From positions 1,984,001 to 2,048,000 of the forward strand of contig CP026511.1 in assembly GCA_004010935.1 (NCBI GenBank): a DNA stretch of 64,000 nucleotides, read 5' to 3'. Both the position numbers and the translations under genes were made by a program. Shown one piece after another: positions 9,521-19,596 of this stretch. Each line of letters starts with the position of its first letter. Position 1 is the stretch's first letter. The notes under the pieces are model-generated. The model was given only the letters and a program-made list of their open reading frames with translations. It was not told where the DNA came from and ran no database searches. The stretch is from Pseudomonadaceae bacterium SI-3 (GTDB lineage Bacteria; Pseudomonadota; Gammaproteobacteria; Pseudomonadales; Pseudomonadaceae).

Positions 9521-9802
9521 TTAGCGGTACTCACACAAGTAGGCAGTCGCCTCCGCCACCTTCAGCTGAAACTTGCTGTTCGCCGGTACGGTGAACTGGG
9601 TGCCAGCGCCGAAAGTTTCGTAGTTTTCGCTACCCGGCAGTTTCACCTCGAGGCTGCCAGCGACAACGTGCATAACTTCCAACTGATTCGTGCCGAACTC
9701 ATATTCGCCAGGCGCCATGACGCCGATGGTGGCGGGGCCCGCTGCCATGTCGAAGGCGATGGATTTGACGGTGCCGTCGAAGTACTCGTTGACTTTGAAC
9801 AT
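9521..9802 (-). CDS. ppnP: Pyrimidine/purine nucleoside phosphorylase PpnP
   Basis: Small cupin-fold enzyme (93 residues, the usual family length) that phosphorolyses a broad range of nucleosides to free base and ribose-1-phosphate in nucleoside salvage. Family signs include [16 protein letters not shown] at the N-terminus, [12 protein letters not shown] and [12 protein letters not shown] in the middle, and [13 protein letters not shown] near the end. It stands alone, convergent with fliT across the palindromic repeat. Confidence 0.92.
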
Positions 9803-10975: not shown

Positions 10976-11713
10976 CTATCCCAGGCGGGAAGTATCGCGT
11001 GGCTTTGAGCCCGTTACGTTTCTTCTAGCGTAGAGCCGTGCAAGCGTAAAGGGCGACAGCCCCAGCATGAAACCCAGGACCAGCAGACGATTGCGGCCGG
11101 CGCGGCGCCACCAGCCATCGCGTTGCCAACGGCGTGAGCTGACCCCGAGCCCATGCTCCAGGCGGCGAAAATGCTTTTGGCTGCGCAATCCCTTGACCAG
11201 CGGAACTTCCTCGAAAAGCGGCCAGGGCGCATGTTGCCCTACGGCGAAATAGGTTGTCCGGCGAGCGAAGATGCCTTGATCGCCATAGGGCACGCCGACC
11301 CGGTTTCGCCAAGCCACCAGGCGTTCGATCAAGCGGCCTTGCCAGCTGTTCGTGTCGCTGAAGCGAAACGCGAAGTAGCCTCCCGTAGCGCCTTTCTCTA
11401 TGGCCTCGCTCACGGCCATCAATGCCTGCCGGTCCAGATCGGCGTCGGCATGCAGAAACCAGAGAGTCTCATGCGCCGAGAGCGCGGCTCCCTGGCGTAA
11501 CTGCTCGCCCCTCGATGGCGTTGCCGATGACCACAGCGCATCGTGGTTCCGGCACAGCGCTTGGCATCGCTCACTGACAGCCGCATCCACTACGACGATT
11601 TGCAGCGGAGTCCCGGTTTCTGACTCAGCCAGACGCAATTGCAGAAGCAGCCGATCAAGGTGCTCTTCGTCGTGCAGGCACGGGATGATCACGCTGATCC
11701 CTGATGAGCTCAC
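10976..11713 (-). CDS. TIGR04283-type glycosyltransferase (arsenosugar-associated)
   Basis: GT2 (GT-A fold) transferase of 245 residues. SVIIPCLHDE begins the nucleotide-binding fold, and WFLHADADLD near residue 90 supplies the acidic metal-binding motif. YGDQGIFARR and PLFEEVPLVKGLR are typical of the TIGR04283 group, and the C-terminus is basic. This group is repeatedly found beside ArsS and TIGR04282 proteins and is annotated as arsenosugar biosynthesis; direct biochemistry is thin. It begins with GTG overlapping the stop of the upstream gene (GTGA, 11710-11713), so the two transferases are translationally coupled. Confidence 0.85.
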   Translation of the reverse strand: MSSSGISVIIPCLHDEEHLDRLLLQLRLAESETGTPLQIVVVDAAVSERCQALCRNHDALWSSATPSRGEQLRQGAALSAHETLWFLHADADLDRQALMAVSEAIEKGATGGYFAFRFSDTNSWQGRLIERLVAWRNRVGVPYGDQGIFARRTTYFAVGQHAPWPLFEEVPLVKGLRSQKHFRRLEHGLGVSSRRWQRDGWWRRAGRNRLLVLGFMLGLSPFTLARLYARRNVTGSKPRDTSRLG

Positions 11714-12396
11714 CGTCGCAGTCCCTCAAGATTGTTCAGCGTTTGTAGCAGTCTTCGCCTCGCTGCTCTGGGGTCGTCGGCGAGCGCTTGGGCTGCAAGA
11801 GGCAGGTCCGCTTGTTCGTCGATATCGAACGATTCCCCGCTGAGCGCAACCGAATGACCCACCCGACGGCATGCGTCCGCCAGTGCGTGACCCAGTTCAG
11901 GGGTGCTCCACGGCAAGGCAGCTAGATCCGGCCAGGGAAGTTTCGACGCCATCAGCACCACCCCACCGTCTCGCGCAGCCACGAGCACCGTATCGTGTGT
12001 CCCCAACGCAGCGTGTACCCGCTGATAGTCATCCGGTGTGAGCGCTGGGGCGTCGCTTCCGATGTACAGAAGCTGCCGATGGCCGAGGCCGCGCAAGCTG
12101 TGGTCCAGGTTGTTGATTCGTTCGCCCAGGTTGCCGGCAGTTTGCGCCAGACACAGAGCCTGCGGCATCAGCTGTGCGGCCCAGTCACACGCATCCCTCT
12201 GATCGGGGGCAATGACGACCGGCCCGTGCCAGCTGCGCAGGTCTTCCAGTGCGCAATCAAGCAGATGCTCGGCGATATTCAAGGCTCGCTCGACACCGAT
12301 GTGCACGGCCAGGCGCTGTTTGCCGTGGCCAAGGGCAGGTCGCTTGCAGATGAGGACCAGCGCTGCGTCGTCAGGAGGGGTTTGCTTCGTAGTCAT
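11710..12396 (-). CDS. TIGR04282 / DUF2064 glycosyltransferase-like protein (arsenosugar-associated)
   Basis: A 228-residue nucleotidyltransferase-like protein (DUF2064). LVLICKRPALGHGKQRLA at the N-terminus is the family signature, resembling nucleotide-sugar pyrophosphorylase loops. LLYIGSDAPALTPDDY near residue 110 carries the conserved Ser-Asp, and ARDGGVVLMA lies near 140. It is usually paired with TIGR04283 and radical SAM ArsS, as here. The ATG at 12396 is chosen over an in-frame TTG three bases earlier. It overlaps the next gene by four bases. Whether it activates or transfers a sugar is inference. Confidence 0.85.
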   Translation of the reverse strand: MTTKQTPPDDAALVLICKRPALGHGKQRLAVHIGVERALNIAEHLLDCALEDLRSWHGPVVIAPDQRDACDWAAQLMPQALCLAQTAGNLGERINNLDHSLRGLGHRQLLYIGSDAPALTPDDYQRVHAALGTHDTVLVAARDGGVVLMASKLPWPDLAALPWSTPELGHALADACRRVGHSVALSGESFDIDEQADLPLAAQALADDPRAARRRLLQTLNNLEGLRR

Positions 12397-12642
12397 CAAG
12401 CTGGCTCGTTGGGGATGGCGGGTGGCACATCTCGGCGCTGCGGTTATGTTCCGTCGGATAAGCCGCTCTGCTTATTGTTTGCAGCGAGGCGTTGAAGGTG
12501 TCTTTGGATCTGTCCTGTCGGGCATTCGATGCAAGGTCCAGCTGCTAACAGTTGAGTTTCACCCGTTGCTTCACCTTTACAGGTTGATCAAAGTGACGGT
12601 TCCGTTTCCGTTTGCGCCGACCTGCTGAGGGCTGTGCCCTGG

Positions 12643-14802
12643 TTATTGCGAATCCGCGCTGCCGCCAAGTCGCCAGCGGTGGAAGCGCGCCAGCCAGCGC
12701 AATACCGTGGCCGGGGCATGGGTGCGTTTCCATTCGCCGGCCACAGATTTGTTGGCTTCGGCCAGGGTCGGGTAAATGTGGATGGTGCCGAGAATCTTGT
12801 TCAGCCCCAGCCCATGCTTCATTGCCGAGACGTACTCGGTGATCAGATCACCGGCATGCTTGCCGACGATGGTAGCGCCGAGAATGCGGTCCTTGCCCGG
12901 CACTGTCAGCACCTTGATGTAGCCATAGGCGGCTTCATCGGCGATGGCGCGGTCAAGGTCATCCATGCCGAAGCGGGTGACTTCATAGGCGATGCCTTGA
13001 GCCTTGGCCTGCTGTTCGTTGAGCCCGACATGGGCGACCTCCGGGTCGGTAAAGGTGGCCCAGGGGATCACGCGGTAGTCCACTTTGAAGCGCTTGAATC
13101 CGCCGAACAGCCCGTTCACCGCGCCGTACCACGCTTGATGCGAGGAGACATGGGTGAACTGGAAGGGGCCGGTTACGTCACCGACCGCATAGATGTTTGG
13201 AAAGCGGGTAGCCAAGTACTCGTCAGTGGCGAGAGTGCCGTTTTCCCGCACTTGTAGTTGCAGTTCCTCGACACCGAAACCCTGAATATTGGCGGCTCGG
13301 CCCAGCGCGACCAGTAGCTGGTCGAACTCGATGACCACTTCACCGTCGAGTGAGAGATCACGGCAGACGACCTGCCGCTCGCCATCGATCGCGTCGAAAC
13401 GCTCGGCGCGGTGCTGCAGACGTACATCCACACCGTCTTTGCGCAACCCCGCCAGTACGGCCGCGCTGGCGTCGGAGTCCTCACGGGGCAGCAGGCGCTC
13501 GTTGCGCTGAACCAGGATGACCTGGCATCCGAGCCGTTGAAAGGCCTGCGCCAACTCGCAACCGATCGGCCCACCGCCTAATACCAGCAGCCGTTTGGGT
13601 TGCTCACGCAAGGCCCAGACCGTGTCCGAGGTAAGCGGTGCGACCTGGTCGATACCGGGAATATCGGGCACCTTCGGACCTGCGCCAGTGGCGATGACGA
13701 TGGCGCGGGTGTTGAGGCGCTGGCCGTTGACCTCGACGGTCCACGGCGAGGTGATCCGTGCTGTGCCTTCGATTACCTCGACGCCGAGTTCGGTGTACCG
13801 CTGAACCGAGTCATGTGGCGCGATCGTGGCGATCACGCGCTGGATGCGTTGCATGACGGCGGCGAAGTCCACCTCGCCCTCGATTGGCTTGAAGCCCAGC
13901 TGCTCGGCCTTCTTGAGCTCATTGGCCAGTCTGGCCGAGCGGATCAGCGCCTTCGACGGGACACAGCCTGTGTTCAGGCAATCGCCGCCCATCCGGTGTT
14001 TTTCGATCAGAGTGACCTTGGCCTTTACCGCCGCTGCGATATAGGCGCTGACCAGCCCACCGGAACCGGCGCCAATGACCACCAGGTTACGGTCGAACCG
14101 ACGTGGTTTTTCCCAGCCCGCGTAAACCTTGCGTGCCTTGAACACGTCCAGCGCCTTACGCGACAACACCGGCAACAGCCCCAGCAGCACGAAGGCGCCA
14201 ATCAGCCCCGGTGAGAGAATGCCGCCCAAAGACTCCAGCTGACCTAGCTCGCGCCCGGCATTCACGTACACCAGCGTTCCGGGCAGCATGCCCAGTTGAC
14301 TGACCCACCAAAATGTACGGACGGGTAATTGCGTAAGACCCATCGCCAGATTGATCAGGAAGAAGGGAAATACCGGGACCAGACGCAAGGCAAACAGGTA
14401 ACTGGCGCCTTCGCGGTTCACGCCCTGGTCGATCTTGGCCAGTCGTTGCCGAAAGCGTGCCTGCACCCAGCTGCGAAGCAAGTAGCGGCTGAGCAACATC
14501 GCGAGGGTCGCGCCGAGCGTCGATGCGAAGGACACCAGCAGCGTGCCGCCAAACAAACCGAAAAGCGCTCCGCCGACAAGCGTCATCAATGCGGCACCAG
14601 GCAGTGACAACGCCGTGACCAATACATAGCCAAGGAAGAAAACGCCACCCGCGAGCCATGGGTGAACCTCCACCTGTGCGTCGAGCGCCGCTTGCTGCGC
14701 CTTGATCGCGTCGAGACTGAGGTATTGGCCCATATCGAACACGAAGAAGCCGGCCAGCAGCACCAGAATCAGCGCCAGTACCGCGATTTTTCGGCTATTC
14801 AT
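12643..14802 (-). CDS. TVP38/TMEM64 (VTT) membrane domain fused to FAD-dependent disulfide oxidoreductase
   Basis: 719 residues in two parts. Residues 1-215 are a VTT/DedA-like membrane unit with a GALFGLFGGTLLV re-entrant-type segment and RLVPVFPFFLINLAMG. Residues 240-705 are a pyridine nucleotide-disulfide oxidoreductase: FAD motif GAGSGGL at 244-250, redox disulfide in GGDCLNTGCVPSK (Cys275 and Cys280), NAD(P) motif LGGGPIGCEL, second FAD motif YAVGDV, and a dimer-interface HIYPTLAEAN in place of the HxxPT(L)xE of mercuric reductase-like enzymes. Such fusions are known in proteobacteria, but their substrate is not. The ATG at 14802 has GGAGAGG upstream; an earlier ATG at 14862 has none. 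Its place between ArsS/symporter and the transferases suggests a membrane-tethered reductase in the same pathway. Confidence 0.88.
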   Translation of the reverse strand: MNSRKIAVLALILVLLAGFFVFDMGQYLSLDAIKAQQAALDAQVEVHPWLAGGVFFLGYVLVTALSLPGAALMTLVGGALFGLFGGTLLVSFASTLGATLAMLLSRYLLRSWVQARFRQRLAKIDQGVNREGASYLFALRLVPVFPFFLINLAMGLTQLPVRTFWWVSQLGMLPGTLVYVNAGRELGQLESLGGILSPGLIGAFVLLGLLPVLSRKALDVFKARKVYAGWEKPRRFDRNLVVIGAGSGGLVSAYIAAAVKAKVTLIEKHRMGGDCLNTGCVPSKALIRSARLANELKKAEQLGFKPIEGEVDFAAVMQRIQRVIATIAPHDSVQRYTELGVEVIEGTARITSPWTVEVNGQRLNTRAIVIATGAGPKVPDIPGIDQVAPLTSDTVWALREQPKRLLVLGGGPIGCELAQAFQRLGCQVILVQRNERLLPREDSDASAAVLAGLRKDGVDVRLQHRAERFDAIDGERQVVCRDLSLDGEVVIEFDQLLVALGRAANIQGFGVEELQLQVRENGTLATDEYLATRFPNIYAVGDVTGPFQFTHVSSHQAWYGAVNGLFGGFKRFKVDYRVIPWATFTDPEVAHVGLNEQQAKAQGIAYEVTRFGMDDLDRAIADEAAYGYIKVLTVPGKDRILGATIVGKHAGDLITEYVSAMKHGLGLNKILGTIHIYPTLAEANKSVAGEWKRTHAPATVLRWLARFHRWRLGGSADSQ

Positions 14803-14922
14803 CCCTGCCTCTCCGTCATTGATGCTCGACCGCATGGGCTGGGTCGCGCCTGATGCTGGCAACTATGGCTGCGCGAGCGGGACGCGAAACGATCACGTGG
14901 CGAACAGCGTCGCCCGTACGCA

Positions 14923-16302
14923 TCATTGGCGTCCTCGCAGCCAGCCCGGCAGCAGGTATCCCAGGGTGCACAGCAACAAACCATAGAGGTTGGTGCCGAG
15001 CAGCAAGGCATATTTGCCATCGCCAATGGCCCAGTTTGGCGGAATCCAATCAAGCGTCAGAGCGATGCCCAGGCAAAGGCCAGTCCAGAAACTCAGGTGG
15101 AACCCCAGGCGAGTCGGGTTCGTCAGGCCGTGCAGGATAAACACCGGGGCGAGCCCAATGACCATGGTCCCGCTGATTGTCGTGGCCTTGAGGATATCGG
15201 TCCCCGCGATCATCGGCAGGTTGCCCAGCAGGGCGAACAACACCATCGCTGCCATGCCCAGACCGATGGCCCGTGCCCCCAGATCACGCCCGGCCAGCAA
15301 TGGCAGTTCTCGCCCAACCAGCTTGGCGAGACTGGAAAATGTCGAGTCCAGCGTCGAGCCCGCGGCCGATACCATCACCACCGTCATCACCAATAGCGCG
15401 CCGATGCCCATAGTCTTGGCCAGGGCCGCCGGGACGTTGTCGGACGCCGGCAAGCCGGTCAATTGTGCATGTACCCCAATCAGACTGAAGGCGAGGATCG
15501 CGACGAAACCCAGGATGCCCGCCAGCAAAAAAGCACGGCGCATGGTGCGTTCTTCGCTGATGAAACCGCGGTCGGTAAGCACCGGATCGTGGAAGCCATA
15601 ACTGAGTGCCTGCAGCCCCGCAACCAGCAGCAGATCGACGCCCGCATTGAGTGACCAGTGACTGGTACTGCTCAGCTCCTCTACCGTGTGTTGCGGCAGT
15701 ACCAGGCCCAGGACCCAAATCAGCGCAACGATGAAGATCGCCATCTGCGCCGCGTCGGTCAGTATCGAGCTGCGAAGCCCACCGCGCAGGCTGTAGCCCA
15801 GCGTGACAGCGGTGAACAGCAAGGCAGCCGCAATGAACTCGGGGCTGCCAGACGCTCCGTAGTAGCCGCCGACCACCGCGGTATTGCTCCACACCTCGTT
15901 GAACAAACGGATGAGGATCGCCGCAGTGAACGCCAGGGCCGCCGCGTGACCGTAATGGCTGGAGAGAAAACTCACCAGGCCGGTAGCCGCAAAGCGCCGG
16001 CGCAAGCGATAGATGACGAAGCCTGTCAGGGGGATTGAGAGCCAGTACATGGCGTACGCCAGTCCGCCGACCAGTCCATAGCTGGCACCCAGATTCGCCG
16101 CGTTGGTCACTGACTTGGCGAAGATCCAGCTGATGAAGATGCTCGAAGTCAGCAACCAGGGCGCGACGCTGCGGCCGTGTTTGTCCTGGCCTTCAAAGAA
16201 GCCACCCAGCGTCACCGAGCGCGGGGACAAGGCCAGCATCGCAGCGCCATAGAAGATCAGAAAGCCCCAGAAAAACAGCCCCGTCCAGCTGCTCATATCC
16301 AT
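14923..16302 (-). CDS. Sodium:solute symporter family protein
   Basis: A 459-residue inner-membrane protein of the SSS (LeuT-fold) family with about 12 hydrophobic helices. Recognisable features are the N-terminal FFWGFLIFYGAAMLALS helix, the SIFISWIFAKSVTNAANLG unwound-helix-like segment, GYSLRGGLRSSILTDAAQM (an SSS signature region) and SAAGSTLDSTFSSLAKL (the sodium-site segment). It lies 10 bases downstream of arsS on the same strand, so it is very likely co-transcribed. The substrate is unknown; in this context uptake or efflux of an arsenical, sugar or nucleoside is a guess. AGGAC precedes the ATG. Confidence 0.85.
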   Translation of the reverse strand: MDMSSWTGLFFWGFLIFYGAAMLALSPRSVTLGGFFEGQDKHGRSVAPWLLTSSIFISWIFAKSVTNAANLGASYGLVGGLAYAMYWLSIPLTGFVIYRLRRRFAATGLVSFLSSHYGHAAALAFTAAILIRLFNEVWSNTAVVGGYYGASGSPEFIAAALLFTAVTLGYSLRGGLRSSILTDAAQMAIFIVALIWVLGLVLPQHTVEELSSTSHWSLNAGVDLLLVAGLQALSYGFHDPVLTDRGFISEERTMRRAFLLAGILGFVAILAFSLIGVHAQLTGLPASDNVPAALAKTMGIGALLVMTVVMVSAAGSTLDSTFSSLAKLVGRELPLLAGRDLGARAIGLGMAAMVLFALLGNLPMIAGTDILKATTISGTMVIGLAPVFILHGLTNPTRLGFHLSFWTGLCLGIALTLDWIPPNWAIGDGKYALLLGTNLYGLLLCTLGYLLPGWLRGRQ

Positions 16303-16312
16303 TGCAACGTCC

Positions 16313-17290
16313 TTATTCGATCAGGCTGCCACCGCAGCTTGAGCCTTGCCCCGCAGTACAGGCATAGCAGTGATCGCGCGTCGCAATGGCGTTGCCTTCG
16401 AGACTGGTCGTCTGGAGCAGATTGCGCAGATGCGGCCGGTCTCGGCCAGTCAGGCCGGGCATGGCGGTCGGCAGGTCGAGCATCTGATTGAAGTCGCAGT
16501 CATACAGATAACCTTGCCAATCCACGCTGATCAGGCTGCGGCACATCACTGCTTCCAGGTTGGCTGGCCGATAACTGTCGCGCAGTAACTGCATGTAGTC
16601 AGCGAATTGCCCTTTGCTGATTAGCGTGCTGCCGAAGCGGGCAATCGGTTGGTTGGTGATGGTCAGCAGATGGTCAAACTGGATACCGAAGTCTTGTGCA
16701 AGGTTCGCTTTGTAATCTGCTTCGAGCGCCGCTTGTGGCGGTGGCAGGCTCGGCCCTTGTGGGTTGTAGACCAAGTTGAGCGTCAGGTCGCTACCGGGTT
16801 CGCCGTAGCCAAGTTGGTTGAGCTTGCGCAGCCCGGCGATGCTGGCCTCGAACACGCCATCGCCGCGCTGCCGGTCGACGTTTTCGCGTGAGTAGCAGGG
16901 CAGGGACGCCGTCACCTCGACGCCTTGCTCGGCCAGAAAATTCGCCAGGTCCTCGTAGCCAGGCTCGCTCAGGATCGTCAGATTGCAGCGGTCGATAACC
17001 CGCAGGCCCTCACGGCGCGCGTGGGCGACGATCTCTCGAAAGCGTGGGTGCATTTCCGGTGCGCCGCCGGTGAGGTCGAGCGTATGCACAGGATGCGCAT
17101 CGATCGCCTCATGCAGCAGGCCGAGGCTCTCATCGGTCATCGCCTCCGTGCGAGTCGGCCCGGCGTTCACATGGCAGTGCAGACAGCGCTGATTGCACTG
17201 GTAGGTGAGATTGACCTGCAAGGCCTCCAGCGACCCGCGACGCAGCGGCGGGAACGCCAGAGCGTTCAGGAGGGGAAGCGTGGCATGCAT
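16313..17290 (-). CDS. arsS: Radical SAM protein ArsS (arsenosugar biosynthesis)
   Basis: 325 residues. The radical SAM cluster motif CNQRCLHC (Cys32, Cys36, Cys39) binds the 4Fe-4S cluster that cleaves S-adenosylmethionine; LDLTGGAPEMHPRF is the SAM-binding GGE-like segment. A second Cys-rich tail (CRSLISVDWQGYLYDCDFNQ, then CYACTAGQGSSCGG) fits the radical SAM/Cys-rich domain family called ArsS. ArsS transfers the 5'-deoxyadenosyl group to dimethylated arsenic on the way to arsenosugars. It is the first gene of a five-gene minus-strand cluster with a symporter, a reductase fusion and two glycosyltransferases. No arsM methyltransferase is seen in this window. Confidence 0.88.
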   Translation of the reverse strand: MHATLPLLNALAFPPLRRGSLEALQVNLTYQCNQRCLHCHVNAGPTRTEAMTDESLGLLHEAIDAHPVHTLDLTGGAPEMHPRFREIVAHARREGLRVIDRCNLTILSEPGYEDLANFLAEQGVEVTASLPCYSRENVDRQRGDGVFEASIAGLRKLNQLGYGEPGSDLTLNLVYNPQGPSLPPPQAALEADYKANLAQDFGIQFDHLLTITNQPIARFGSTLISKGQFADYMQLLRDSYRPANLEAVMCRSLISVDWQGYLYDCDFNQMLDLPTAMPGLTGRDRPHLRNLLQTTSLEGNAIATRDHCYACTAGQGSSCGGSLIE

Positions 17291-17670: not shown

Positions 17671-19188
17671 TCAAAGCGACCTAGCTGCCAGCGGCTGGAT
17701 GGCCGGGCCGTGAATCACCTCACCGTCAGCCTGGAAGATCGAGCCGTGGCAGGGGCAGTCCCAGGTGCGGTCGGCATTGTTCCAGGTAACGCTGCAACCC
17801 ATGTGCGTGCAGGCCGCGGAGACACCGTGCAGCACGCCGGAATCGTCTCGCCAGACCGCGATTTGCTCGTCGCCGCGGGTAATCACGCCACCTTCGCCGG
17901 GGCCGATAGCGTCCAGCTCATCGACCTGTGACTGGCTCTCGCCGCTCAGGTTGAAGTCGTCCGGCGAGGGCCGCCTGGGGTCGTAAAGTGTCTTCCAAGG
18001 GCGCCGCCCGGTGATGATCTGGCGAGCGATACCAAGGCCGGCGGCGGTGCCGTTGCTGATGCCCCACGCATTGAAACCGGTGGCGACGAACAGCCCGGGC
18101 GCCTCCTCGGGATCGGCCTCGCCAACATAGGCCATGTGGTCGGCGGTGTCGTAGTCCTCGTTGCACCATTGCCATACCGCCTCGCCAACCGGCAGGTTGC
18201 TGCGCGCCCACTGTTCGAGATCGACGAAGCGCTGCGCCACGTCTCCGTCCTGCCCGGTGTTGAAGCGCGGGCCGAGTACGAGCATCAGCGGGCCTTGATC
18301 GTCGCGACCCATGCGAATCGAATGGGTCGGGTCTTCGGCGGCGATGAACATGCCCTCAAGGTGGGCTTCGTCCTGGGGGCGGAAGGCGATTGCCACATGG
18401 CAGCGTGGTTGGGTCGGGCTGATCAGGTCGATTGGCGTCTCTACCGGCATGTGCGTGGCGAGAATCACCTGGTCGGCGCTGACCGTGCCGCCATCGAAAC
18501 TCACCTGCCAGCGGTCGTTGCGCTCGAATTTCTGCGCGCGGGTTTGCTGATGGATCTGCCCCCCGCAAGCCTGTACCGCCGCCGCCAGGCCGACCAGGTA
18601 GCTGGCTGGGTTGAATTGCGCCTGGTCGGGAAACTCGAGCGCGCCCGTGGTCTCGAAGGGCAGCGGCGCGCGGTCGAGCACCCGCGCGGCAAAGCCCAGG
18701 CAGCGAGCCGCCTCAGCTTCACGCTCGATGGCCTCGCGGCCTTGCGCGGAACAGGCATAAGCGAAGGCGGACTGGCGCTGGTAATCGCAGTCGATTTGCA
18801 GGTCTTCGACCCAGTGGCGGATGCGGTTGACCGCTTCGCGGTTGACGTCGGCGTAGCACTGCGCCAGGTCCTGGCCGAAGGTATCAATCAGGTGTCGGTA
18901 AATGAGGGCATGCTGAGTGGTGACCTTGGCGGTCGAGCGTCCGGTGACCTGTCGGCCGATTTCGCGCGCTTCGAGTACCACGACCTTCTTGCCGGCTTCG
19001 CAGAGCGTCATGGCGGCGCTCAGCCCGACGATGCCGGCGCCAACCACCACAACGTCGCATTCGCTGTGGCCGGTCGCTGGCGGGAAGTCGCTACGGGGTG
19101 CACTGGCATTCCAGCAGCAGTCGGGTAGGGCGGATAGCGCGGGCATGGGTAGGGTCCTCATCGGCTGAGTCGCATGGTCTGTCGACAT
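17671..19188 (-). CDS. FAD-dependent oxidoreductase with C-terminal Rieske domain
   Basis: 505 residues. A DAO-type FAD fold begins with VVVVGAGIVGLSAA near residue 47 and an acidic VVVLEA strand end. A VATGFNAWGISNGTAAG segment near residue 380 closes the FAD site. The C-terminal 80 residues are a Rieske [2Fe-2S] domain (CTHMGC followed by DCPCHGS), so electrons can pass between flavin and iron-sulfur centre. Such FAD-Rieske proteins are common in Pseudomonas and of unproven substrate. The ATG at 19188 has AGGTG at good spacing; an ATG at 19215 is less well placed. It is a single gene flanked by gaps of about 400 bases. Confidence 0.88.
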   Translation of the reverse strand: MSTDHATQPMRTLPMPALSALPDCCWNASAPRSDFPPATGHSECDVVVVGAGIVGLSAAMTLCEAGKKVVVLEAREIGRQVTGRSTAKVTTQHALIYRHLIDTFGQDLAQCYADVNREAVNRIRHWVEDLQIDCDYQRQSAFAYACSAQGREAIEREAEAARCLGFAARVLDRAPLPFETTGALEFPDQAQFNPASYLVGLAAAVQACGGQIHQQTRAQKFERNDRWQVSFDGGTVSADQVILATHMPVETPIDLISPTQPRCHVAIAFRPQDEAHLEGMFIAAEDPTHSIRMGRDDQGPLMLVLGPRFNTGQDGDVAQRFVDLEQWARSNLPVGEAVWQWCNEDYDTADHMAYVGEADPEEAPGLFVATGFNAWGISNGTAAGLGIARQIITGRRPWKTLYDPRRPSPDDFNLSGESQSQVDELDAIGPGEGGVITRGDEQIAVWRDDSGVLHGVSAACTHMGCSVTWNNADRTWDCPCHGSIFQADGEVIHGPAIQPLAARSL

Positions 19189-19596
19189 CTCATCACCTGC
19201 CACAGCTAACGGCATGGCCGGAGGTTCACGAAACGTCGGGCACTAGGGAGTAGAGCGGTCCGGTTCGGGCTGGTTCCTGACCACCGGGCAGGACGCGCCA
19301 ATCGACACCCATCCGGCCTTACTCGCGTCGGTTAGTGCGAAAAACAACAAACGGAGCCCGCCGTACCCGTCACTTCCTCGCGCACGCAGACCGTCTTGTG
19401 TCGACCTGCCGCACCCGCCTACTGCATCGGCGCTATGACAGAGGCGTCAGGAAACTCCGATGTCGGCGCTGCTCTGAATCAGCAGTTCGCTGCTTCTGTT
19501 GCGTCGCAACAGAAGGTACCGATCAAGGCGGAACAATCAGCCTGGTGGCCGATCCGAACTAGCTATGAGCAAAATGAAAGCTGGGGAGGGCCAGCC
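19189..19596. other. Intergenic region with a perfect hairpin
   Basis: A 408-base gap between divergent genes. Small ORFs present lack ribosome sites. A perfect 10-bp inverted repeat with a 3-base loop (19493-19502 with 19506-19515) lies 82 bases before the endonuclease-family gene and is a candidate operator or leader stem. Confidence 0.5.

Follow-up and report, generated by a model that had tools for sequence, protein, structure and literature searches.

ArsS-family genes are carried by about half of the gammaproteobacterial genomes that we sampled, yet the events around the ArsS step are poorly known. The window analyzed here, a stretch of 64,000 nt from a Stutzerimonas genome, contains an arsS gene followed by genes for a symporter, a membrane-domain reductase and two glycosyltransferase-like proteins. 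The locus raises the question of whether the symporter and the reductase belong to an arsenosugar-type pathway. We approached it by computing gene identity and order, recurrence, co-occurrence across genomes, linkage to other ars genes in sister species, and the presence of a detectable ArsM.

Gene content of the arsS operon

Five co-directional genes occupy positions 17290 to 10976 of the minus strand, in the order arsS, symporter, VTT-FAD, TIGR04282-like and TIGR04283-like glycosyltransferase (Table 1). The first-pass annotation had placed the five genes on one strand and within these coordinates, with the symporter 10 nt after arsS, and had described a fusion of a TVP38 domain with an FAD disulfide reductase. 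All of this was recovered, with the 10 nt counted from the arsS stop codon, and the fusion does carry the VTT (PF09335), Pyr_redox_2 and Pyr_redox_dim domains.

Table 1. Genes of the arsS operon in the window, listed in the order of transcription.
Gene product	Coordinates	Strand	Length and basis of assignment
ArsS, radical SAM enzyme, ArsS family (TIGR04167)	16313..17290	-	325 aa; 449 bits; DUF3641 C-terminal domain; CX3CX2C
SSF/SLC5-fold symporter	14923..16302	-	459 aa; PF00474 (weak); predicted structure; position behind arsS
VTT (TVP38/DedA)-FAD pyridine-nucleotide disulfide oxidoreductase fusion	12643..14802	-	719 aa; PF09335 + PF07992 + PF02852
TIGR04282-like glycosyltransferase / CofC-like protein	11710..12396	-	109 bits, cut-off 134
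TIGR04283-like glycosyltransferase (GT2)	10976..11713	-	171.5 bits, cut-off 182

Two of the starts in Table 1 differ from the ends of the open reading frames. For VTT-FAD, the frame extends to a TTG at 14862, and the ATG at 14802 is the likely start because most aligned homologs begin there. The frame of the TIGR04282-like gene opens with a TTG at 12399, and the ATG at 12396 is its likely start. The two glycosyltransferase frames overlap by 4 nt. Over the full profiles, both proteins score below the NCBI cut-offs and are thus divergent relatives rather than members by score of the families that NCBIfam names arsenosugar biosynthesis glycosyltransferases. Of the 17 ArsS-bearing Stutzerimonas loci, counting that of the window, 16 have a homolog of the TIGR04282-like gene close to arsS; the exception is L125.

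Further Stutzerimonas and a second genus of the family show the same gene order, with or without one extra gene; because of this recurrence, the arrangement is unlikely to be due to chance. A scan for sigma-70 promoters between 9400 and 19300 found none (2.2 were expected by chance), while terminator-like sites in the same interval were at the chance level (7 compared to 6.9).

We also considered the PpnP nucleoside phosphorylase gene (9521-9802), as a possible adenine-removing enzyme, and rejected it as a companion of the operon. Among the loci then compared, its close matches (97-99%) were confined to related loci that share its flanks (L002 and L126-L128), and the sole other match, in L014, was at 38%.

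ArsS, ArsM and linkage to arsenic genes

The ArsS protein exceeds the NCBI cut-off of 300 bits by a wide margin (449.4 bits on TIGR04167); taken together with its DUF3641 domain (PF12345, 182.7 bits) and its radical SAM motif (CNQRCLHC, at residue 32), this makes it a member of the ArsS family. An arsenosugar pathway would also have ArsM in the ArsS-bearing genome, and this partner was not found here. The earlier remark that the window has no ArsM was correct, as a tblastn search of the window with an ArsM query listed no match. The genome as a whole has no recognizable ArsM either, with the best match to NF008823 at 62 bits (cut-off 263); in the other genomes, the matches taken for ArsM had scores of about 108-388 bits on this model. 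Among the 17 ArsS-bearing Stutzerimonas genomes ArsM went undetected in 16, one of which (G390) is only 71% complete. Because of this, where the ArsS substrate comes from in the genus becomes a question that can be tested directly.

Such a distribution bears on whether the cluster is dedicated to arsenic at all. The ArsS subfamily and its partners could act on another metalloid or on a thiol or nucleoside compound, and the name arsenosugar would then have been transferred from cyanobacterial work. This would fit the undetected ArsM in Stutzerimonas, the larger number of genomes with ArsS-family genes (183 of 369 gammaproteobacterial genomes) than with a detected ArsM (132, an undercount), and the recurrence of TIGR03169-like (Nterm_to_SelD) genes in arsS neighborhoods (8 of 80 loci when genes were clustered, 13 of 80 when a looser tblastn search was used). 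On the other hand, ArsS and ArsM strongly co-occur in the gammaproteobacterial sample (odds ratio 9.7), and two sister species carry the operon behind a set of arsenic genes. In the first (L123), the series arsS, symporter, VTT-FAD and two glycosyltransferases begins 213 nt past arsR-arsH-GAPDH-arsJ on the same strand; in the second (L122), arsR-arsH-GAPDH-arsJ lies upstream of the same series, also on the same strand, with two genes between. A third locus (L005) also speaks for arsenic: arsR-arsH-GAPDH-arsJ is situated within 10 kb of arsS and VTT-FAD, and ArsM and ArsC are grouped there too. Given this evidence, we consider a function apart from arsenic rather unlikely.

The strongest argument for an arsenic-related operon is the position of arsR-arsH-GAPDH-arsJ ahead of it in the sister species. 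ArsJ is an exporter of a phosphoglycerate arsenical; to our knowledge, neither ArsS nor the glycosyltransferases belong to the classical arsR-arsH-GAPDH-arsJ operon. The window's genome has these four genes as well, about 465 kb away (L160). In a search confined to Pseudomonas-type ArsJ, ArsH, ArsR and ArsC queries, with E at most 1e-12, just one of the 80 arsS loci (L005, the source of the queries) and two of the 17 ArsS-bearing Stutzerimonas loci had relatives.

Association of the VTT-FAD fusion and the symporter with ArsS

Across the 369 gammaproteobacterial genomes, ArsS was present in 95 of 123 genomes with VTT-FAD, compared to 88 of 246 without it (odds ratio 6.1, p 2e-14, a value that is optimistic because the genomes are related). 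Both genes could be placed in 75 genomes. In 15 of these, from 12 families, at most 10 kb separated VTT-FAD from arsS, compared to 0.5-1.5 expected; VTT-FAD was away from arsS in the other 60, and 28 more VTT-FAD genomes had no ArsS (many of the assemblies behind these counts are drafts). The 80 arsS loci contained 37 VTT-FAD genes, of which 34 were downstream of arsS on the same strand, 19 of these at a distance of at most 200 nt. In ArsS-negative genomes, VTT-FAD tracked ArsM (12 of 28 genomes with VTT-FAD compared to 12 of 158 without), and in ArsS-positive genomes no link to ArsM was seen (55 of 95 compared to 53 of 88). In three ArsS-negative loci, ArsM and VTT-FAD stand together with a radical SAM gene of another kind; two of these loci also have a TIGR04283-like gene. 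These distributions suggest that the VTT-FAD reductase is a genuine recurrent partner of ArsS.

The symporter scores 19.0 bits on PF00474 (SSF), under the gathering cut-off of 22.8. Its predicted structure (pLDDT 84) has the SSF/SLC5 fold over the full length and matches CHT1, SiaT, DUR3 and SGLT from end to end. Within Stutzerimonas, all six symporter carriers also have arsS, and in five of the six the symporter is directly behind it; 11 of the 17 ArsS-bearing genomes lack the symporter. In the class as a whole, its association with ArsS was not significant (7 of 9, p 0.08). The symporter is probably an ArsS partner in the Stutzerimonas lineage. Its presence does not track the lack of ArsM: G373, the sole ArsM-positive genome among the ArsS-bearing Stutzerimonas, has the symporter, and 11 ArsM-negative genomes are without it.

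Elsewhere, a metallophosphatase-like gene, so assigned from sub-threshold Pfam scores only, is often found together with the symporter; it is absent from the window and had been overlooked in the first-pass annotation. We considered two possible remnants, one of this gene in the window, where a look-alike start follows the symporter and precedes VTT-FAD, and one of the symporter in the sister loci L126-L128. Neither was supported: in the nine local alignments made for them, the observed score was reached by 39 to 448 of 500 shuffles.

The proposal that symporter and fusion extend the cluster was to be judged by whether they occur just as often away from arsS. The outcome was mixed. VTT-FAD is beside arsS far more often than chance would place it and is non-randomly tied to ArsS; the tie of the symporter is limited to a lineage, and in the class sample both genes are commoner away from arsS than beside it. 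The latter observation would also be expected if the two were general membrane and redox hitch-hikers in a region prone to gain and loss, with only arsS and the glycosyltransferases cooperating. The symporter and the metallophosphatase-like gene do come and go among close relatives, and in Stutzerimonas the loci L129-L136 lack both the symporter and VTT-FAD but have arsS with the two glycosyltransferases. Still, hitch-hiking leaves unexplained the co-location of VTT-FAD with arsS in 12 families, its downstream same-strand position and its association with ArsM where ArsS is lacking, and we judge it improbable.

Properties of the VTT-FAD protein

The VTT domain is above the gathering score (86.8 compared to 33.9 bits), and the reductase part matches PF07992 with 214.6 bits and PF02852 with 106.1 bits. 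With FAD/NAD and dimerization domains and a redox CxxxxC motif (CLNTGC at 275-280, with both cysteines conserved in 14 of the 15 proteins aligned), the protein is a pyridine nucleotide-disulfide oxidoreductase. In lipoamide dehydrogenase and glutathione reductase, the C-terminal histidine of an HP-type motif is the catalytic base. VTT-FAD has tyrosine in place of this histidine, as do 14 of the 15 aligned proteins, and so is neither of these enzymes by this feature; the position was read from phmmer alignments to lipoamide dehydrogenases and glutathione amide reductase. The predicted structure (mean pLDDT 56) was too poor for use.

That VTT-FAD is a MerA-like reductase for mercury or for general metal detoxification, co-selected with arsenic genes, is very unlikely: among solved structures, a mercuric reductase is its closest match by sequence and its tyrosine aligns with a MerA tyrosine, but it scores 377.6 bits on the MerA model (cut-off 454.45) and, with five cysteines at 275, 280, 415, 426 and 480 of 719 and none beyond, does not have the C-terminal vicinal cysteine pair of MerA.

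Proposed roles of the five genes

Our confidence is about evenly divided on whether this is an organoarsenical (arsenosugar-type) operon of five genes with the reductase and transport roles described here. The scheme below is our inference as regards substrates, transport direction, redox step and product. ArsS would put a 5'-deoxyadenosyl group on methylated trivalent arsenic, which is probably of outside origin because the genome lacks ArsM. VTT-FAD, a putative reductase of the MerA/lipoamide dehydrogenase superfamily that is anchored in the membrane and depends on NAD(P)H and FAD, most likely maintains the arsenic, or its thiol conjugate, in the reduced state needed by ArsS. Transport of a pathway substrate, either an arsenical or a sugar, across the inner membrane is the most likely task of the symporter, and both glycosyltransferase-like proteins may process the ArsS product.

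A more specific version is speculative, and we would not expect it to hold: bacteria without ArsM may import methylated arsenic that their neighbors have released by a dedicated SSF symporter, re-reduce it by VTT-FAD at the membrane, adenosylate it by ArsS and then glycosylate it. If true, arsenosugar synthesis would be divided among members of a community. For the organoarsenical operon in general, the tracking of ArsS and ArsM by VTT-FAD and the position of the operon behind arsR-arsH-GAPDH-arsJ provide specific candidates for the reduction and transport steps that are still missing.

Comparison with known systems

In a limited literature search, an arsS operon containing the VTT-FAD fusion seems to be undescribed. 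The arsinothricin cluster arsQML, as outlined in the sections of PMC8552651 that deal with it, likewise combines a radical SAM enzyme, a methyltransferase and a membrane protein in making an organoarsenical. Its radical SAM enzyme (ArsL) is a different one, and those sections mention neither VTT-FAD nor an SSF symporter. With the ArsM-ArsS arsenosugar pathway of Synechocystis, as presented in PMC8552651 and PMC12159101, the window shares the ArsS-family radical SAM enzyme; it differs in that its genome has no detected ArsM and in that a symporter and a VTT-FAD reductase are situated inside the operon. The VTT-FAD fusion itself is already known: according to the relevant part of PMC10127716, fusions with a pyridine nucleotide-disulfide oxidoreductase are the most common fusions of COG0398 DedA proteins, and they have the same pairing of PF09335 with PF07992 and PF02852. 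There, these fusions are tied to aerobic metabolism only, whereas the fusion of the type seen in the window is tied to the ArsS and ArsM genes.

The operon and its relatives

The five genes listed by the first-pass annotation were all present in the order it gave: arsS (radical SAM enzyme, TIGR04167), a symporter (SSS), a TVP38/DedA membrane domain fused to an FAD disulfide reductase (VTT-FAD), and two glycosyltransferase genes (GT82 and GT83). The spacings from arsS onward were 10, 120 and 246 nt, followed by a 4-nt overlap, and the set is a real operon. The window occupies C1:1984001-2048000 of the SI-3 genome, a single contig of 4.84 Mb; by ArsS, the closest named genomes were Stutzerimonas xanthomarina (89%) and S. 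stutzeri (85%).

Features of the operon and its surroundings (window positions)
Feature	Position	Strand	Remark
arsS	17290-16313	minus	
SSF-type symporter	16302-14923	minus	
VTT-FAD fusion	14802-12643	minus	ATG at 14802
TIGR04282-like protein	12396-11710	minus	GT82
TIGR04283-like protein	11713-10976	minus	GT83
FAD/Rieske oxidoreductase gene	17671-19215		upstream of arsS, 380-nt gap
Small ORF, 83 aa	10404-10655	plus	opposite to operon; CxxCxxCC zinc/iron-chelating family (PF03692, 28.4 bits; cut-off 23)

Among the loci compared, close matches to the FAD/Rieske gene, and to the DMT and PpnP genes downstream, were confined to the relatives L002 and L126-L128; therefore, all three look like ordinary flanking genes.

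Within Stutzerimonas, the order arsS-SSS-VTT-FAD was shared by the window, L122 and L123, while L124 and L125 had arsS-SSS-MPP-VTT-FAD (MPP, a metallophosphatase-like gene) and L121 and L126-L128 had arsS-VTT-FAD. At L129-L136 the two glycosyltransferase genes were divergent from arsS, with neither membrane gene within the fetched flanks. In a different genus of the family (G442, L158), the genes ran arsS-SSS-MPP-VTT-FAD-GT83-GT82, all on one strand, and arsS and the symporter were about 0.6 kb apart.

We also observed that the window glycosyltransferases (10976-12396) were 88-97% identical to those of L126-L128 and just 64-74% identical to those of L122-L124, whereas the window symporter was 90-92% identical to that of L122-L124. 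Judging by these contrasting identities, the operon looks like a mosaic.

Association of VTT-FAD with arsS

We compared the best 80 of at least 588 arsS loci, ranked by similarity to the window ArsS, many of which end at contig edges. VTT-FAD (at least 500 bits) lay inside the fetched flanks of 37, including L037 and L046, where only the FAD half adjoins arsS. In 34 of the 37 the gene was downstream of arsS on the same strand, with 19 within 200 nt. VTT-FAD is a well-supported recurrent partner of arsS.

A single class sample of 369 evenly drawn gammaproteobacterial genomes was searched for every gene. ArsS (E below 1e-60; 180 genomes exceed NCBI's own cut-off) was found in 183 genomes, and 123 carried VTT-FAD (E at most 1e-150), 95 of them alongside ArsS (odds ratio 6.1, Fisher p 2e-14, 369 genomes); at 19 of 125 VTT-FAD places the FAD half alone was covered. 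ArsS positions among the matches listed, from 149 of the 183 genomes, left 75 genomes with both genes placed. The two were at most 10 kb apart in 15 of these, from 12 families, compared to about 0.5 expected (1.5 on a conservative reckoning). The genes were farther apart or on separate contigs in the remaining 60, and 28 genomes had VTT-FAD without ArsS; the fusion is thus tied to arsS yet not confined there.

Away from arsS, ABC transporter genes recurred near VTT-FAD (L140, L142, L144, L154, L155), including an NF008633 substrate-binding protein at L142; some of these loci also had a CDP-alcohol phosphotransferase-like gene or an Nterm_to_SelD-like reductase. These neighborhoods may resemble the ydjXYZ-ynjABCDF region of E. 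coli. SI-3 also carries, at C1:2311756-2313888 (L137, 7637-9889), a second VTT-FAD copy of 49% identity. Both redox cysteines (ALHSGS versus CLNTGC) and the motif Tyr are lost in it, and it may be a pseudo-enzyme or serve some other function.

At 14 of the 80 arsS loci there were genes that cluster with an ECF sigma factor-like gene (L003, 13235-13930), and at 8 there were members of an anti-sigma-like cluster; both are possible regulators.

The symporter and the metallophosphatase-like gene

Among 56 Stutzerimonas genomes, ArsS was found in 17 and the symporter in 6, all of them among the 17 (p 4e-4); it directly followed arsS in five, the genes being on separate contigs in G407. Class-wide the symporter was rare (9 of 369 genomes). 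All nine carriers had VTT-FAD somewhere in the genome (p 4e-5) and seven had ArsS (p 0.08); the symporter was beside arsS only in SI-3 and G225. It was preceded by an FAD-only relative in G126, lay 3.3 kb from VTT-FAD in G202, and had no partner genes next to it in G108, G171 and G279. Of the two companions of arsS proposed by the first-pass annotation, VTT-FAD is well supported, whereas the symporter holds only as a lineage-limited partner.

The metallophosphatase-like gene, with Pfam scores below the cut-off, followed the symporter at all seven symporter-bearing loci among the 80, and was present at 20 of the 80 overall, whether or not the symporter was there. The pairing was looser in the class sample: the genes were adjacent in three of the nine symporter genomes (G055, G202, G324). 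Nine genomes carried the metallophosphatase-like gene; in six it stood together with a symporter (those three, and G155, G266 and G362, where the symporter is a more distant one of 38-40% identity), and in three it did not. A genome search found no copy in SI-3.

ArsM and the link to arsenic genes

A plain arsenosugar reading meets its strongest objection in the lack of a detected arsenite methyltransferase, ArsM. With the NF008823 profile, ArsM was not detected in SI-3 or in 15 of the 16 other ArsS-bearing Stutzerimonas genomes (G390, counted as negative, is 71% complete). Only G373 had it (E 5e-57); the others gave matches of 60-66 bits, with none in G394. Either the cell obtains the methylated substrate from outside, or this ArsS uses a different one.

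In the class sample, ArsM (NF008823, E at most 1e-30) was found in 132 of 369 genomes, an undercount since the cut splits one ArsM subgroup. It co-occurred with ArsS, being present in 108 of 183 ArsS-positive compared to 24 of 186 ArsS-negative genomes. Where ArsS was missing, VTT-FAD tracked ArsM (12 of 28 genomes with VTT-FAD versus 12 of 158 without; odds ratio 9.1, p 1e-5); ArsS-positive genomes showed no such effect (55 of 95 versus 53 of 88). At L146, L147 and L153, all from ArsS-negative genomes, VTT-FAD adjoined an ArsM-like gene and a non-ArsS radical SAM gene (35-48 of 300 bits on TIGR04167 for L146 and L153). By profile, L153 also had genes of the TIGR04282 and TIGR04283 types; at L146, similarity revealed a TIGR04283-like gene.

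In a sister species (G422, L123), arsS-SSS-VTT-FAD-GT82-GT83 started 213 nt past the arsJ of arsR-arsH-GAPDH-arsJ on the same strand. Order and strand were the same in G417 (L122), but two same-strand genes, by eye TetR-type and HAD-type, separated arsJ from arsS. A Pseudomonas MAG (L005) held arsR-arsH-GAPDH-arsJ, GT82-GT83-DUF547 and arsS-VTT-FAD-TIGR03169-ArsM-ArsC within 16 kb; its ArsJ, ArsH, GAPDH, ArsR and TIGR03169 scored above NCBI's cut-offs, and its ArsM and ArsC below. In SI-3, arsR-arsH-GAPDH-arsJ was about 465 kb from the window. The L005 ArsJ, ArsH, ArsR and ArsC served as queries, and matches to any of them were found at 1 of the 80 arsS loci (L005 itself) and 2 of the 17 ArsS-bearing Stutzerimonas loci. 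Linkage of arsS to such genes was rare in both sets.

The operon is most likely part of an organoarsenical pathway. What the first-pass annotation proposed that the reductase and the symporter do biochemically is plausible but unproven.

Comparison with known systems

A limited literature search found no mention of the arsS-symporter-VTT-FAD operon in the accessible parts of PMC10127716, PMC8552651 and PMC12159101; it may be new to the literature. In the excerpts available, PF07992/PF02852 fusions are the commonest COG0398 DedA fusions and are related to aerobic metabolism (PMC10127716), and descriptions are given of SsArsS with SsArsM and of the two radical SAM routes by which C-As bonds are known to form (PMC8552651, PMC12159101).
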